From Candidatus Nitrosopumilus sp. (GTDB lineage Archaea; Thermoproteota; Nitrososphaeria; Nitrososphaerales; Nitrosopumilaceae), in contig JAOTSS010000056.1 in assembly GCA_029864805.1 (NCBI GenBank), forward strand, positions 1 to 11,724: a DNA stretch of 11,724 nucleotides, read 5' to 3'. Of this stretch, positions 1-5,627 are shown in pieces (position 1 is the stretch's first letter; every line of letters begins with the position of its first letter). The position numbers and the translations under genes were made by a program. The notes under the pieces were generated by a model that was not told the DNA's origin, did not search any database, and saw only the letters and a program-made list of their open reading frames with translations.

Positions 1-39
1 CAAAATGGCTAGTAGCGCGAACGACGTACGACTGTTCAT
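1..39 (-). CDS. Exported protein, N-terminal 13 codons only (runs off the left edge)
   Basis: An ATG at 39-37 opens a minus-strand frame reading MNSRTSFALLAIL to the window edge with no stop. A short start with one or two arginines followed by a hydrophobic run is the beginning of a signal peptide and resembles the start of the neighbouring 285-residue secreted protein (MNFKRSTTSM...). A TATA element identical to that of the neighbouring gene lies 44 nt upstream of the ATG, at almost the same distance as there (45 nt), which supports both the gene and its start. It is probably another member of the tandem secreted set. Nothing is visible of the mature protein, so a PEFG-CTERM ending is inferred from context only. 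Confidence 0.6.
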   Translation of the reverse strand, partial: MNSRTSFALLAIL

Positions 40-63: not shown

Positions 64-83
64 TATTTATGTATATTTAAAAA
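64..83 (-). promoter_or_regulatory. TATA-box promoter of the partial gene at 1-39
   Basis: On the minus strand this reads TTTTTAAATATACATAAATA, a strong archaeal TATA (box A) sequence. Placing transcription start about 28 nt below TTAAAT gives a start near position 52 and a leader of about 13 nt before the ATG at 39. The same 20 bases occur at 985-1004 upstream of the next gene in the array. Confidence 0.65.
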
Positions 84-101: not shown

Positions 102-959
102 TTAGTATCTTGGCATAATGCTAAGTCTTGACTTTGCAGATACTGCAATTATTGAGATAATTGCTACTGCTAGAATCATGGCTGCAATTGTACCAAATTC
201 TGGTACTACGACTCCATCTTTAATATCGACTTCAGTTGAAGCGGTATATTTTGGATCGTCAAATTGTTTTGCACTTACCGTGTAGAATCCATCTTGTTTC
301 CATAGTGGTCCGCCAGTGGTGATTACTTTGGTAAATTCACCATTGAGCATTGGTGTTACTTGCGCAACAGATACCACATTTCCATTTGGTGCAGTTATTG
401 TCAAAGTAATATCTTGACTTACTCTATCAGTTGTACCTTCTATGTTGATTGTTGTAGATCCTATAACAGCATCTGCATAAATTTCAAGTCCTTTATCTAT
501 TGCAACATTTGGAGTAACATATACTAGTCCTGATTCCATATTGGTTTCAGTCACAAGAGTTTTTTTTGCCATTCCGTTTGTTACTTCAACAAGCACCTTT
601 AGTGTATACAATGAGTTTTGCTGTGGGCTTTGCATAGCCTTGATTGTGTAGAATCCATTTTCAGTCCATGTTGGGCCTATCTTGAATTCTGTTGCAAATT
701 CTCCATTGACATCTGGCGAAACTTGACCAATTCCTACTACATTATTTCCACTTGGAGATGTTACTCTAAATGTAATGTCTGTAATTTTTGAAATTGTCTT
801 GCCTGTTACCGTTATGGTATCTGAGTTTCTATCAGCTTTGGCAGTAATACTCATTCCTTGACTTTGAGCAAAAGCATCTTGTTGAATTGAGGTCATTGAA
901 ATTAATGACAATGCCATGAGGGCTATCGCCATTGATGTTGTAGAACGTTTAAAATTCAT
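102..959 (-). CDS. Secreted two-repeat Ig-like protein with PEFG-CTERM sorting signal
   Basis: A 285-residue exported protein. Residues 1-31 are a signal peptide (K4/R5, hydrophobic stretch, likely cleavage after AFA near 31). The mature part holds two related beta-rich modules, about 37-110 and 158-232. By eye roughly half of some 50 aligned positions are identical, with shared landmarks DIT, P-x-GN, QV-x-P, NGEF, W and GFYT. The C terminus carries the PEFG-CTERM signal: P253-E-F-G256, a hydrophobic segment to about 274, then a basic tail SAKSRLSIMPRY. In thaumarchaea such tails are taken to be archaeosortase targets, so the protein is probably cleaved and anchored on the cell surface. The modules recall Ig-like or macroglobulin MG2-like folds, which is inference. 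The ATG at 959 sits about 14 nt below the predicted transcription start. The ligand or role is unknown. Confidence 0.88.
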   Translation of the reverse strand: MNFKRSTTSMAIALMALSLISMTSIQQDAFAQSQGMSITAKADRNSDTITVTGKTISKITDITFRVTSPSGNNVVGIGQVSPDVNGEFATEFKIGPTWTENGFYTIKAMQSPQQNSLYTLKVLVEVTNGMAKKTLVTETNMESGLVYVTPNVAIDKGLEIYADAVIGSTTINIEGTTDRVSQDITLTITAPNGNVVSVAQVTPMLNGEFTKVITTGGPLWKQDGFYTVSAKQFDDPKYTASTEVDIKDGVVVPEFGTIAAMILAVAIISIIAVSAKSRLSIMPRY

Positions 960-984
960 CCTAATTCAACTTCTGATATCTTGT

Positions 985-1004
985 TATTTATGTATATTTA
1001 AAAA
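985..1004 (-). promoter_or_regulatory. TATA-box promoter of the 102-959 gene
   Basis: Identical on the minus strand to the element at 64-83 (TTTTTAAATATACATAAATA). TTAAAT begins at 1001, so transcription should start near 973, leaving a leader of about 14 nt before the ATG at 959. No clear Shine-Dalgarno site is seen in that leader. Confidence 0.7.
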
Positions 1005-1015
1005 TAGAAAAAAAG
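1000..1015 (-). terminator. Oligo-T terminator after the 1023-1850 gene
   Basis: The minus strand reads CTTTTTTTCTATTTTT starting 8 nt after the stop codon. This is a plausible archaeal U-tract terminator running straight into the TATA box of the next gene, as at 79-93. Confidence 0.5.
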
Positions 1016-1022
1016 ATGAAAT

Positions 1023-1850
1023 TTAGTATCTTGGCATAATGCTAAGTCTTGACTTTGCAGATACTGCAATTGTTGAGATAATTGCTACTGCTAGAATCAT
1101 GGCTGCAATTGTACCAAATTCTGGAACTACAAATGTACCGATTATTTCGATCTCTTCAGCTCCTGCTGGGAATGCTATGGTAAGAACTCTGTTCATTGAT
1201 GATATTGTTTCATCAAAGTCCACTTCTTCTCCATCAACTAAGACAAAGAAATCGTCATCTTCATTATTCATTGTTGCATCCAACACAGATCTTGGGATTG
1301 TCAGGGTTAGTGAACCATCATTTGTTGCATCAATTGATACAATGAGTGAATTTGCTTCAACATCAGGTACGATGCTTAATAATTTTCCACCTGTAATTGT
1401 GTATTTTATTAAATCATTAGATCCTTCAACTGAAACTGTTTTGTCAGTTACATTAGAACTGCTTTTTGGTGGGACCATCGTAGATCCTCCAAATTCAAAT
1501 GATGTTGTTGCTATACGATTTTGGGTTCCATATGTGACTTCAACTGTATAAGTTCCGGCTGTTCTCATTGTTCCACCCGCAGTAATTTCAGCACTGAATT
1601 TCTTATCAACGCCTACTGTAAGTTGAGCAAGAGCAACAATAGCCTTGTCATTCTTAACTATCAAACTTACTGGAGTACCAGAATACAGATCTCTCACTTC
1701 ACCTGTTACTAGAATTGTTTCACCTTCTGAATATGATGATTTGTCCGTAGTAACAACAATCGAGTTTTGTATTTGTCCAAACACTGGTGTCATGCCAATA
1801 CTTGCAATCAAAATTGCAGATAAGGTAAACACCATTAGATGAGCTTTCAT
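1023..1850 (-). CDS. Secreted Ig-like protein with PEFG-CTERM sorting signal
   Basis: A 275-residue exported protein. Residues 1-25 are a signal peptide ending PVFG. Residues 28-120 form an Ig-like module with the pattern TDK-x2-Y-x2-G...V-x-G...G-x-YTV-x-V-x-YG, also found in the gene starting at 10941. Residues about 125-135 are a Ser-rich linker. Residues 138-240 form a second beta-rich domain containing LTIPRSVLDA (183-192), an acidic stretch NNEDDDFF and a hydrophobic FVLVDGEEVDF, ending EIEIIGTF. I recall this domain as common in thaumarchaeal PEFG proteins. P243-E-F-G246, a membrane segment and the SAKSRLSIMPRY tail make the sorting signal. A TTG at 1853 is in frame, but the ATG at 1850 fits better: the TATA box predicts transcription starting at about 1852, making the mRNA almost leaderless. 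Function unknown; cell-surface display is inferred. Confidence 0.87.
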   Translation of the reverse strand: MKAHLMVFTLSAILIASIGMTPVFGQIQNSIVVTTDKSSYSEGETILVTGEVRDLYSGTPVSLIVKNDKAIVALAQLTVGVDKKFSAEITAGGTMRTAGTYTVEVTYGTQNRIATTSFEFGGSTMVPPKSSSNVTDKTVSVEGSNDLIKYTITGGKLLSIVPDVEANSLIVSIDATNDGSLTLTIPRSVLDATMNNEDDDFFVLVDGEEVDFDETISSMNRVLTIAFPAGAEEIEIIGTFVVPEFGTIAAMILAVAIISTIAVSAKSRLSIMPRY

Positions 1851-2028: not shown

Positions 2029-2280
2029 ATGGCAACTAAAAAAAATCAAGTTTTAGTTCCTGATCATATCTATGTTCCAAAACATGAGATTATTTCAAAA
2101 CAAGAAGCTGAAGGTGTTTTAAAAAAATACAATTGTAAACCTACAGAATTACCCTTAATCTTTGTAAACGATCCTGCAATTTTAGGGCTAGGAATAAAAC
2201 CTGGTGATATGATAAAGATCACCAGAAAAAGTCCCACTGCTGGTGAGAGCTTCTATTATCGATACGTGGTGGAAGTATAA
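2029..2280 (+). CDS. rpoH: DNA-directed RNA polymerase subunit H (RpoH/Rpb5 C-terminal homologue)
   Basis: This 83-residue protein is the archaeal counterpart of the C-terminal assembly domain of eukaryotic RPB5. It binds the largest subunit at the jaw/clamp region of RNA polymerase. Visible family signatures are VPDHIYVPKHE (10-20), the helix with E-x2-GVLKKY, LP-x-I-x2-NDPA, the PGDMIKITRKS strand (58-68), and the closing TAGESFYYRYVV. The length is usual for archaeal H subunits. It is first in the operon, and its stop codon overlaps the rpoB start by one base (TAATG), suggesting coupled translation and balanced subunit supply. The start at 2029 is fixed by GGAGG 8 nt upstream. The identification is firm. 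Confidence 0.97.
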   Translation: MATKKNQVLVPDHIYVPKHEIISKQEAEGVLKKYNCKPTELPLIFVNDPAILGLGIKPGDMIKITRKSPTAGESFYYRYVVEV

Positions 2281-5200
2281 TGGTGGACCCTTCTACAAAA
2301 CGTTGGCCAGTAATTCAAGATATTTTAAAACGTGAAGGTATTGCACGTCAACATTTGAACTCCTTCGATGAATTTTTAGAAAGAGGATTACAAAGTATCA
2401 TCAATGAAGTAGGACAAATTGATATTGAAAATGCTGAATACCCTTACAAAATTCAACTAGGAAAAGTTAAACTTCAACAACCAAGAATGATGGAACTTGA
2501 TGGTTCTATTACCCATATTACTCCAGCTGAGGCAAGACTGAGAAATGTTTCATATTCTGCACCTGTAATGATGGAGGCAAGTGTTGTAGAGGATGGAAAA
2601 ATTTTGGAATCAAGGTTTGTTCATATTGGTGATGTACCAGTAATGGCAAAATCAAATGCGTGTATATTACATAATTTCTCCACTCAAAAATTAATTGAAC
2701 ATGGAGAAGATCCAAATGATCCCGGTGGCTATTTTATCATTAATGGTTCTGAAAGAGTCATTGTAGGATTAGAAGATCTTTCATATAACAAAATTATTGT
2801 TGACAGAGAGACTGTTGGTGGAAATATTGTTTTCAAAGCTAAAGTGTATTCATCAATTGTTGGTTATCGTGCAAAATTAGAACTTGTTATGAAAAATGAC
2901 GGTTTGATTGTAGCTAGAATTCCAGGCTCCCCCGTTGACATTCCGGTTGTTACATTAATGAGAGCACTTGGATTAGAATCTGATAGAGAAATTGCTGCAG
3001 TAGTTTCATTAGTAGATGATCTTCAAGATGAATTGGAAGGCTCTTTTGAAAAAGCAGGAGACGTTTCAACTTCTAAAGATGCTATCGTTTACATCAGTAA
3101 AAGAATCGCACCTGGAATGTTAGAGGAATTCCAAATTAAACGTGCTGAGACTTTGCTTGACTGGGGTCTATTACCACATCTGGGTAAACATCCTGAGAAT
3201 AGAAAAGAAAAAGCACAATTCTTAGGTGAAGCTGCTTGTAAACTATTAGAATTAAAACTCGGTTGGATTACTCCTGATGATAAGGATCATTATGGAAATA
3301 AAGTAATCAAATTTGCAGGACAAATGTTGGCAGATCTCTTTAGAACTGCATTTAGGAATCTGGTTAGAGACATGAAATACCAATTAGAAAGATCTGGTCA
3401 AAAACGAGGAATTAATGCAGTAGCTGCTGCAATCCGTCCTGGAATTATTACTGATAAACTAAATAATGCAATTGCCACTGGAAACTGGGGACGAGGACGT
3501 GTAGGTGTTACCCAATTACTTGATAGAACAAACTATCTTTCAACAATTAGTCATCTTAGAAGAATTCAATCTCCTCTTAGTAGAACCCAACCAAACTTTG
3601 AGGCAAGAGATTTACATGCAACTCACTTTGGAAGAATTTGTCCAAGTGAAACTCCAGAAGGCTCAAACTGTGGTTTGGTAAAAAATCTTGCGCTGTCTGG
3701 AATTATTTCAGTTAATGTCCCATCTGAAGAAATTGTAGAAAAACTCTATGATCTTGGAACTGTACATTTCTTTGATGCAAAAGATGATTTGAAGAAAGAC
3801 GGAACCCGAGTATTTGTAGATGGTCGTCTAATTGGATATTTCAAAGATGGTCAAGAATTGGCCGAATCTCTAAGAGACCTAAGGAGAAATTCAAAAATTC
3901 ATCCTCACGTTGGAATCTCATTTCATAAATCCGATATTGAAGGTTCAACAAGAAGACTTTATGTAAATTGCAATGCTGGTCGAGTTTTACGACCATTAAT
4001 AATTATCAAAGATAACAAATCATTATTGACACAAGATCTCTTAGATAAAATCTCTAAGAAATTACTTTCTTGGACTGATCTATTGAGAATGGGTGTCTTA
4101 GAAATGATTGATGCCAATGAAGAAGAAAACTGTTATGTCACTTTAGATGAAAAAGATACAAAGAAACATACCCACCTTGAAGTATTTCCTCCAGCAATCT
4201 TAGGTGCAGGAGCTTCTATCATTCCATATCCCGAGCATAACCAGTCTCCAAGAAATACATACGAGTCTGCAATGGCAAAACAAAGTTTAGGATTCTCAAC
4301 ACCAATGATGAACACTAGTACTTATGTTAGACAACACTTTATGCTATATCCACAAGTCCCAATTGTAAATACAAAAGCAATGAAGCTTTTAGGATTAGAA
4401 GATAGACCTGCAGGTCAGAACTGTGTAGTTGCAGTACTTCCATTTGATGGTTATAATATCGAAGACGCAATTGTACTTAGTAAAGCATCTGTTGATAGAG
4501 GTTTGGGAAGAACTTTCTTCTATAGAATTTATGATGCTGAGGCAAAACAATACCCCGGTGGGATGCGTGACACTTTTGAAATCCCTAACGCTGAAGATAA
4601 CATTAGAGGTTACAAGGGAGAGCGTGCATATAGATTGCTTGAAGAAGATGGCGTTGTTGCATCAGAAGCCCCAGTAAAGGGCGGTGATATTCTAATTGGA
4701 AAAACAAGTCCTCCTAGATTCATGGAAGAATACAAAGAATTTGAATCATCTGGTCCATACAGAAGAGATACTTCAATTGGTGTTAGACCATCTGAAACTG
4801 GCGTTGTGGATACTGTAGTTATGACTCAATCAAATGAAGGCGGAAAAATGTATAAAATTAGAGCAAGAGATATGAGGATTCCTGAAATTGGCGATAAGTT
4901 TGCATCAAGACACGGACAAAAAGGTGTGCTTGGGATTTTAGCAAAAGCTGAAGACTTACCATATACTGCAGAAGGCATGTCTCCTGATGTTTTAATTAAT
5001 CCCCATGCATTCCCATCACGAATGACTGTTGGAATGATGATGGAATCTATTTGTGGTAAAGCTGCTGCATTTCGTGGAAAACGATTTGATGGTTCAGCAT
5101 TTGTTGGAGAAAAAATGGATGAAGTAAAAGAGGTAATGGATACACACGGTTTCAAATATTCTGGTAAAGAAATAATGTATGATGGAAGAACTGGGAAACC

Positions 5201-5627
5201 ATTTCCGGTTGATGTCTTTGTTGGAGTTGTATACTATCAAAAACTTCACCATATGGTTGCAGATAAAATTCATGCAAGAGCACGTGGACAAGTTCAGATG
5301 TTAACTAAACAACCTACTGAAGGTAGAGCAAGAGGTGGTGGATTAAGATTTGGTGAAATGGAAAGAGACTGCTTGATTGCTTATGGTGCTTCAATGATTC
5401 TAAAAGATAGATTATTAGATGAATCTGACAAATCTGACATCTTTGTATGTGAAAGATGTGGATTGGTTGCTTATCATGATGTTAAACAAAGAAAATATGT
5501 CTGCAGAGTTTGTGGTGATAAAGCCAAAGTCTCTTCAGTATCTGTAGCATATGCATTCAAATTACTCTTGCAAGAAATGCAAAGTCTTAACGTTGCACCA
5601 CGTCTATTAATTAAGGAGAAAATTTAA
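2280..5627 (+). CDS. rpoB: DNA-directed RNA polymerase subunit B, unsplit (RpoB/Rpb2)
   Basis: The second-largest RNA polymerase subunit, 1115 residues, full length and in one piece. Some euryarchaea split it into B' and B''. Conserved blocks appear in order: HATHFGRICPSETPEG (446-461), a hallmark of Rpb2 proteins; GYNIEDA (724-730) with the acidic ED pair near the active centre; GDKFASRHGQKG (871-882), containing the lysine and arginine that contact the nascent RNA/NTP region; and GGGLRFGEMERD (1019-1030) near the anchor/clamp. A C-terminal zinc ribbon uses C1057, C1060, C1075 and C1078. With RpoA it forms the catalytic cleft. A GGTGG 7 nt upstream and the 1-nt overlap with rpoH support the start. 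Its own stop overlaps the rpoA start in the same TAATG fashion. No missing motif or frameshift is seen. Confidence 0.98.
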   Translation: MVDPSTKRWPVIQDILKREGIARQHLNSFDEFLERGLQSIINEVGQIDIENAEYPYKIQLGKVKLQQPRMMELDGSITHITPAEARLRNVSYSAPVMMEASVVEDGKILESRFVHIGDVPVMAKSNACILHNFSTQKLIEHGEDPNDPGGYFIINGSERVIVGLEDLSYNKIIVDRETVGGNIVFKAKVYSSIVGYRAKLELVMKNDGLIVARIPGSPVDIPVVTLMRALGLESDREIAAVVSLVDDLQDELEGSFEKAGDVSTSKDAIVYISKRIAPGMLEEFQIKRAETLLDWGLLPHLGKHPENRKEKAQFLGEAACKLLELKLGWITPDDKDHYGNKVIKFAGQMLADLFRTAFRNLVRDMKYQLERSGQKRGINAVAAAIRPGIITDKLNNAIATGNWGRGRVGVTQLLDRTNYLSTISHLRRIQSPLSRTQPNFEARDLHATHFGRICPSETPEGSNCGLVKNLALSGIISVNVPSEEIVEKLYDLGTVHFFDAKDDLKKDGTRVFVDGRLIGYFKDGQELAESLRDLRRNSKIHPHVGISFHKSDIEGSTRRLYVNCNAGRVLRPLIIIKDNKSLLTQDLLDKISKKLLSWTDLLRMGVLEMIDANEEENCYVTLDEKDTKKHTHLEVFPPAILGAGASIIPYPEHNQSPRNTYESAMAKQSLGFSTPMMNTSTYVRQHFMLYPQVPIVNTKAMKLLGLEDRPAGQNCVVAVLPFDGYNIEDAIVLSKASVDRGLGRTFFYRIYDAEAKQYPGGMRDTFEIPNAEDNIRGYKGERAYRLLEEDGVVASEAPVKGGDILIGKTSPPRFMEEYKEFESSGPYRRDTSIGVRPSETGVVDTVVMTQSNEGGKMYKIRARDMRIPEIGDKFASRHGQKGVLGILAKAEDLPYTAEGMSPDVLINPHAFPSRMTVGMMMESICGKAAAFRGKRFDGSAFVGEKMDEVKEVMDTHGFKYSGKEIMYDGRTGKPFPVDVFVGVVYYQKLHHMVADKIHARARGQVQMLTKQPTEGRARGGGLRFGEMERDCLIAYGASMILKDRLLDESDKSDIFVCERCGLVAYHDVKQRKYVCRVCGDKAKVSSVSVAYAFKLLLQEMQSLNVAPRLLIKEKI
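5613..5618 (+). promoter_or_regulatory. Shine-Dalgarno site of rpoA inside the rpoB 3' end
   Basis: AAGGAG ends 8 nt before the rpoA ATG at 5627 and lies within the last rpoB codons. Its spacing matches that of rpoH and supports the start that overlaps the rpoB stop. Confidence 0.75.

Follow-up and report, generated by a model that had tools for sequence, protein, structure and literature searches.

The window considered here, a stretch of 11,724 nucleotides from Candidatus Nitrosopumilus sp., contains two neighbouring PEFG-CTERM genes, A and B, and raises the question of how two genes with unlike bodies come to end in almost the same DNA. On the minus strand, the tails of A and B, counted from the PEFG Pro codon up to and including the stop, differ at one of 102 bases: on the sense strand, position 151 is T (Ile, ATA) and position 1072 is C (Thr, ACA), giving one non-synonymous and no synonymous difference. 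Both edges of the block are equally sharp. Immediately before PEFG, Val is encoded by GTA in A and by GTT in B; immediately after the stop, A continues with GTTCAC and B with ATTTCA. The initial annotation of this DNA had pointed out the near-identity, the edge at the Pro codon and the lack of synonymous differences, and all of these observations hold. Its further statement that the rest of the two proteins is unrelated at the DNA level is also correct; at the protein level, 28 of 109 residues are identical (E 3e-4 for a single comparison), and from their sequences the bodies look like those of very distant paralogues.

The PEFG-CTERM Gene Array

A and B are members of a conserved array, B-A-C(-D), of PEFG-CTERM genes found in Nitrosopumilus and its relatives (Table 1). 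All 38 loci in which one contig spans the three genes B, A, and C have them in this order on one strand, and in 29 of them the motif of D was identified as well. The common tail is carried by B, A, and C; D has a different one. Both tails of the window pass the TIGR04296 model of PEFG-CTERM with 45.9 and 44.8 bits (cut-off 25), and C and D of genome G013 also lie above this cut-off. Gene A has, judged by eye, a signal-like segment at its N-terminus, and its matches to MG2/Ig-like domains are below cut-off. A TATA-like stretch of 20 nt, tatttatgtatatttaaaaa, recurs past both stops; located upstream of the next gene, it is read as probably the promoter of that gene, outside the tail block. The ORFs that diverge from the array and serve as landmarks of the locus were named by eye and are presumably rpoH and rpoB.

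Table 1. Features of the window and insertions in related arrays.
Feature	Position	Strand	Basis
First 13 codons of gene C, third array gene, cut by the window edge	1..39	-	Agrees with the start of C, located after A, in other genomes
Probable C promoter, TATA-like, in the A–C spacer	64..83	-	Sequence; same stretch in most listed relatives; promoter role inferred
Tail of A, homogenised block: 33 codons, PEFG..MPRY, and stop	102..203	-	Sequence, tail comparison
Base separating the A tail from the B tail (ATA vs ACA)	151	-	Sequence
Gene A, 285 aa, PEFG-CTERM	102..959	-	ORF, TIGR04296
Probable A promoter, TATA-like, in the B–A spacer	985..1004	-	Sequence, relatives; promoter role inferred
Tail of B, 101/102 bases as in the tail of A	1023..1124	-	Sequence comparison
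B-tail base absent from the B tails of G001, G014, G032, and L087	1072	-	Tail comparison
Gene B, 275 aa from ATG (276 from TTG), PEFG-CTERM	1023..1850	-	ORF, TIGR04296
rpoH and rpoB, divergent from the array	2029..5627	+	ORFs; names recognised by eye
Array insertions >2 kb	L087:3372-6000, L051:2968-6470, L101:6868-9870, L120:2762-5985		Profile matches

The genome nearest to the window is G001, with 30% of the sampled 31-mers in common. Of 61 related genomes, 37 contained the tail in a DNA search; 34 of these belong to one genus, and the remaining three were found by weak matches. At the protein level, gene A as query matched 36 named loci, most of them from Nitrosopumilus, and in addition two from Nitrosarchaeum, one from Cenarchaeum and others from further Nitrosopumilaceae or thaumarchaeal bins; loci whose gene was identical to one in a genome already read were treated as duplicates.

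Some other features of the locus are also worth mentioning. The window itself begins 101 bases from a tail. The start of gene C consists in most of the 30 genomes listed of G/C-rich codons (CGT ACG TCG TTC GCG), which is odd beside the mostly A/T-ending codons of the array gene bodies. All four of the insertions larger than 2 kb that were examined inside the array hold an ORF resembling a DDE transposase (DDE_Tnp_IS240 in three, DDE_Tnp_1 in one), three being located between B and A and one between A and C; the spaces beside the tails thus repeatedly take IS-like elements. A similar gap of about 4 kb is present in the array of L115.

Comparison of Tails Within and Between Genomes

The main data set came from 50 genomes, most of them metagenome bins, and comprised 137 tails of the genes A, B, and C. 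Incomplete tails, tails with N and tails of a length other than 102 nt were excluded (e.g., G016 C, G028 A, G021 B, and A and B of G035), as were the dispersed copies L075, L076, L085, and L121, the Cenarchaeum locus L118 and one opposite-strand gene of L114. Different genes of the same genome differ on average at 3.0 of 102 positions (127 pairs, 27 of them identical), and the same gene in two genomes at 8.6 (3061 pairs). When genome labels were shuffled 1000 times the within-genome mean was 8.65 and never fell below 7.97. Synonymous differences taken alone behave like the total (1.93 within a genome against 4.88 after shuffling, the lowest of 500 shuffles being 4.55), and selection on the peptide is therefore not enough to account for the likeness. 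The same pattern is seen in the five single-contig genomes (2.6 differences within, 15 pairs, vs 7.9 between, 30 pairs), and homogenised tails were also found in the two Nitrosarchaeum records and in another Nitrosopumilaceae bin.

Among the 134 tails with a partner, 79 are nearer to a paralogue of their own genome than to any orthologue elsewhere, 24 are tied and 31 are not; conversion is thus incomplete. Against the nearest relative, the mean is 2.69 differences within the genome and 4.92 to the orthologue, with the paralogue nearer in 74 of 106 comparisons, equal in 10 and farther in 22. The largest differences within a genome are 11 (G030) and 10 (G036 and L110), and copies of one genome keep private differences.

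In a tree of 57 tails, from 19 hand-picked genomes out of the 40 with three tails, A, B, and C require 19, 17, and 19 changes and no grouping by gene appears, in a topology that is weakly supported (1 of 38 inner branches starred). The AU test rejects the A, B, and C tails as clades, with p values of 0.00056, 0.024, and 0.0005, respectively. The bodies of B and C, by contrast, split cleanly, each forming one clade with a support of 100. The tails thus follow the genome and the bodies follow the gene, and in this respect the gene conversion proposed in the initial annotation is well supported.

Extent of the Homogenised Tract and a Proposed Mechanism

The footprint of the exchange was expressed as the ratio of differences between paralogues within a genome to differences between orthologues of two genomes, in 12-nt bins counted from the Pro codon. 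Along the tail the ratios are 0.52, 0.31, 0.46, 0.22, 0.28, 0.12, 0.68, and 0.39, and the final 6 nt give 0.76. The middle shows the strongest signal (0.12 at nt 60–71 and 0.22–0.28 at nt 36–59), and the profile is not smooth, as the values at nt 24–35 and nt 72–83 indicate. In the 48 nt located 5' of the tail the ratio is 0.84–1.5 for B vs C and above 2 for A vs either; in the first 18 nt past the stop it is 0.56–0.70 for A vs C and 0.9–1.7 for pairs with B. Individual mosaics are visible in the tail sequences. The B tail of G007 equals those of A and C except for six positions in the last 18 nt, four of which agree with G030 B. In G023 both the B tail and its 3' flank are A-like, which indicates a converted tract extending past the stop. 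The mapping of breakpoints, which had been suggested as a check, gave tracts reaching from near the Pro codon to about the stop and sometimes beyond.

These observations are best explained, with a probability that we put at roughly 0.88, by concerted evolution through gene conversion limited, within a surface-gene array, to the sorting-signal tail. A, B, and C would be old tandem paralogues whose bodies have diverged past easy DNA homology, and whose 3' ends would still form direct repeats of about 102 bp. Homologous recombination, presumably RadA-dependent, would copy one tail onto another, starting near the PEFG Pro codon, where homology ends; a crossover-free mode is suggested by the preserved gene order. 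A change arising in one copy would then be either erased or spread to the others. Selection for a uniform signal fitting one sorting or anchoring machinery may keep the tails alike enough to convert.

Synonymous Conservation Across the Genus

At four-fold degenerate sites the tails of different genomes have identities of 0.90 (A), 0.88 (B), and 0.87 (C) in 24, 27, and 26 genomes, the 26 C genes including one dispersed C-like copy (L076 of G025) that is absent from the set of 137 tails. The corresponding values are 0.61, 0.65, and 0.72 for the bodies, 0.62 for rpoB (98% amino-acid identity, 19 genomes), and 0.45 for the tail of D (20 genomes). Over body identities between 0.5 and 0.8 the tails keep an identity of 0.88–0.89 (about 0.885), with 0.78 in the most distant pairs; total tail divergence rises with body divergence, from about 0.04–0.05 to 0.12. 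For residues conserved to at least 90%, a single codon makes up at least 95% of the cases at 18 of 28 tail sites in A, 15 of 27 in B, and 16 of 28 in C, compared with 13 of 71, 10 of 87, and 19 of 91 body sites, respectively. Codon choice is position-specific, with GCA at tail codon 11 in 137 of 137 tails and mostly GCC or GCT at codon 7; as the bodies of the same genes also differ, a general codon preference was rejected as the sole cause. Conservation is apparent at the gene starts, too. In a further comparison, the windows for D and for the gene starts suffered from alternative start codons and were set aside.

Two dispersed groups of PEFG genes were compared in the same way. In P1, present in eight genomes (one match in seven of them and two in G035), the tail has a four-fold identity of 0.84 against 0.585 for the body, with codons of its own. 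In P2, from six genomes, the values are 0.61 and 0.51, hardly any excess, and synonymous conservation is therefore not universal in PEFG genes. The P1 loci are L126–L131, L145, and L150; in the four that were read, the gene is convergent with one ending in a hydrophobic tail.

Such high synonymous conservation between species, found in the P1 tail as well, is not predicted by unbiased conversion and counts against conversion acting alone; on these comparisons conversion seems unlikely to have produced it merely in passing, and a second layer is suggested. It can be asked whether purifying selection at the nucleotide level, for RNA structure, codon choice or a 3'-end signal, might keep all tails alike with no conversion whatsoever. 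The four-fold identities, the position-specific codons and P1 are all in line with this, as is the fold energy of 20 non-independent tails, whose mean z is −1.38 relative to shuffles of synonymous codons and −0.69 relative to synonymous codons drawn at random. What such selection does not explain is the residual variation common to non-orthologous genes of one genome. In addition, RNAalifold predicted two hairpins in 23 tails with a double change in none of the 19 pairs, the third-position entropy of paired and unpaired sites gave p 0.10, and Rfam returned no match at E up to 1 in positions 1–2400 of the window. As the sole explanation it is improbable, and nucleotide-level selection is probably the second layer and not the cause of the A/B identity.

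An RNA element was rejected because of the lack of double changes, the mild fold energy and the lack of an Rfam match. A dyad in the middle of the tail, GCAATTAT-N4-ATAATTGC, is perfect in 90 of 137 tails; it was rejected as a dispersed operator because its exact matches in seven genomes are confined to array tail positions, with none in G007. The nucleotide-level function considered in the initial annotation is still conceivable in view of the unusual conservation of synonymous sites across the genus; an RNA structure, an Rfam family and a dispersed motif were looked for and none was shown.

Age of the Homogenisation in the Window

The word "recent" that had been attached to the conversion is harder to uphold. 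In G001, G014, and G032 the bodies are diverged by 6–11% from those of the window and the tails are within 0–1 of 102 bases of its A and B tails; since relatives carry the same tail, the zero synonymous differences between A and B do not alone show a recent event. L087, with a body divergence of 5.7%, nevertheless differs from the window at six (A) and five (B) tail bases, so that tail turnover is uneven and can be quick; no close donor of the L087 tails was found among the 137. Judged by bodies, L087 and G001 are equally near to the window (5.7 and 5.9%), and their tails differ from it at 5–6 and 0–1 positions, respectively. The base at 1072 in B is probably a point change that followed homogenisation, because none of the B tails of G001, G014, G032, and L087 has it.

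Unlinked PEFG Genes

Five dispersed PEFG genes that match the tail consensus in 28 of 33 residues use the same codon at 14–18 of 27 sites (52–67%); array tails, from which the consensus was made, use it at 89% on average. Judged by their codons, most of the selected dispersed PEFG genes that were examined are outside the tail exchange. The cassette-like swapping envisaged earlier therefore applies to A, B, and C of one array and to a few unlinked genes, and not to PEFG genes in general. D takes no part either, its tail not being conserved.

The unlinked exceptions are of several kinds. In G007, L085 is a chimeric gene of 388 aa with a 394-nt match to array gene C that ends at the stop and contains no more than two mismatches, none of them in the 102 nt of the tail. 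L121, from the same assembly as L093, carries a three-letter combination found among the 137 tails only in L093 and L096. L075 of G035 and gene C of the same genome have the only tails with a certain six-letter combination, and the differences between the two are all in the last third. L157, unlinked in G017, contains a four-letter mid-tail combination that among the 137 tails occurs only in G017 A and B; it has its own tail ends and six differences in all (the nearest other genome has seven). L156, a second array-like unlinked tail of G017, has 10 differences to its own array and 10 to L099/L100, with no special tie to the G017 array tails. Finally, L139 and L140, on different contigs of G019, have tails of their own type that are identical at 100 of 102 bases; the likeness begins exactly at the Pro codon and continues for about 50 nt beyond the stop, and their bodies are unrelated, the best local stretch being 9 of 34 residues. 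The G019 contig ends C10 and C16 matched in the tail search and may hold further copies of this type; a closer look at G019 did not confirm them there.

It is conceivable, if rather unlikely, that the tail is a DNA module which is under nucleotide-level selection across the genus and serves as a recombination landing pad for linked and unlinked PEFG genes, with G019 and G017 as examples of unrelated bodies that would have captured a tail. Isolated cases, L139/L140 among them, would also fit recent duplications of tail cassettes in place of continuing conversion. As a general account this is very improbable: gene order is kept in 38 of 38 loci and the bodies of B and C each form one clade, so the duplications would have to recur in place in every lineage, which is conversion under another name, and the mosaic tails of G007 and G017 have internal breakpoints.

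Protein-level convergence of the tails through coevolution with the anchoring machinery has still less to recommend it. Amino-acid variants are indeed shared by the genes of one genome, NVLPKY, for instance, being present in all three genes of L117, and non-synonymous differences number 1.07 within a genome against 3.75 after shuffling; synonymous variants are shared in the same manner, however, and neither D nor most of the dispersed PEFG genes examined follow. That identity is an artefact of repeats collapsed in assembly is scarcely credible, for although draft contigs often end inside or beside tails (e.g., G001:C99, G035:C9/C21, G026:C155, G027:C139), the five single-contig genomes and contigs spanning two or three tails show the same pattern and the copies keep private differences.

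Sorting Enzyme and Relation to Known Systems

The exosortase/archaeosortase model PF09721, the one model tried, gave no match at E 0.01 in six genomes of relatives (G001, G007, G008, G014, G023, and G037), which carry 6 to 15 PEFG tail matches each; among 14 controls it matched in one, Methanocaldococcus jannaschii. TIGR04485, considered as a sorting-enzyme model, describes a different family and was discarded. It may be that the enzyme has diverged too far for a match, or that the tail is no more than an anchor.

In antigenic variation, e.g., of vls or pilin, conversion exchanges the variable part of surface-protein genes. The array resembles such systems in intragenomic conversion among surface-protein genes, and differs in that the conserved end is exchanged while the bodies stay orthologous. 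A cassette with silent donors and a variable expressed body does not fit the array, as B, A, and C appear in 38 of 38 loci in the same order, with open frames assignable by body similarity.

The process itself is known; the scope, homogenisation limited to the tail, appears to be new. Long-lasting concerted evolution of prokaryotic paralogues, in which those of one genome are nearer to each other than to their orthologues over long times by conversion, is described in the part of Wang and Chen (2018; PMC6053082) drawn on here, for 19 bacterial and seven archaeal genes. The archaeal genes in that account are all from methanogens and treated as whole genes, whereas here only the last 102 nt are homogenised, in genes with diverged bodies and in ammonia-oxidising archaea. 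A passage on tandem giant surface-protein genes of Apilactobacillus kunkeei (PMC12863079) likewise reports homogenising recombination shaping consecutive surface-protein genes; the exchange it describes is between strains and genera and often in long tracts, unlike the short 3' module within one genome. The TIGR04296 model of Nitrosopumilus PEFG-CTERM, which the tails pass, describes the peptide and not homogenisation at the DNA level. Three PEFG-CTERM proteins were more abundant in cultures without catalase according to a passage of PMC6593220 that is silent on tail evolution. The literature search yielded no report of tail-limited conversion in PEFG genes, which is not proof that none is in print, and no work joining PEP-CTERM and gene conversion.

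The array thus appears to be a case in which conversion maintains only a common targeting signal while the proteins served by it diverge, across the genus and beyond. It suggests that about 100 bp of homology is enough for long-term homogenisation in these archaea. PEFG tails are, as a warning, unsuited to phylogeny, and their homogenisation may explain contig breaks at array loci. At the same time, short-tract recombination in Nitrosopumilus becomes measurable from existing genomes.
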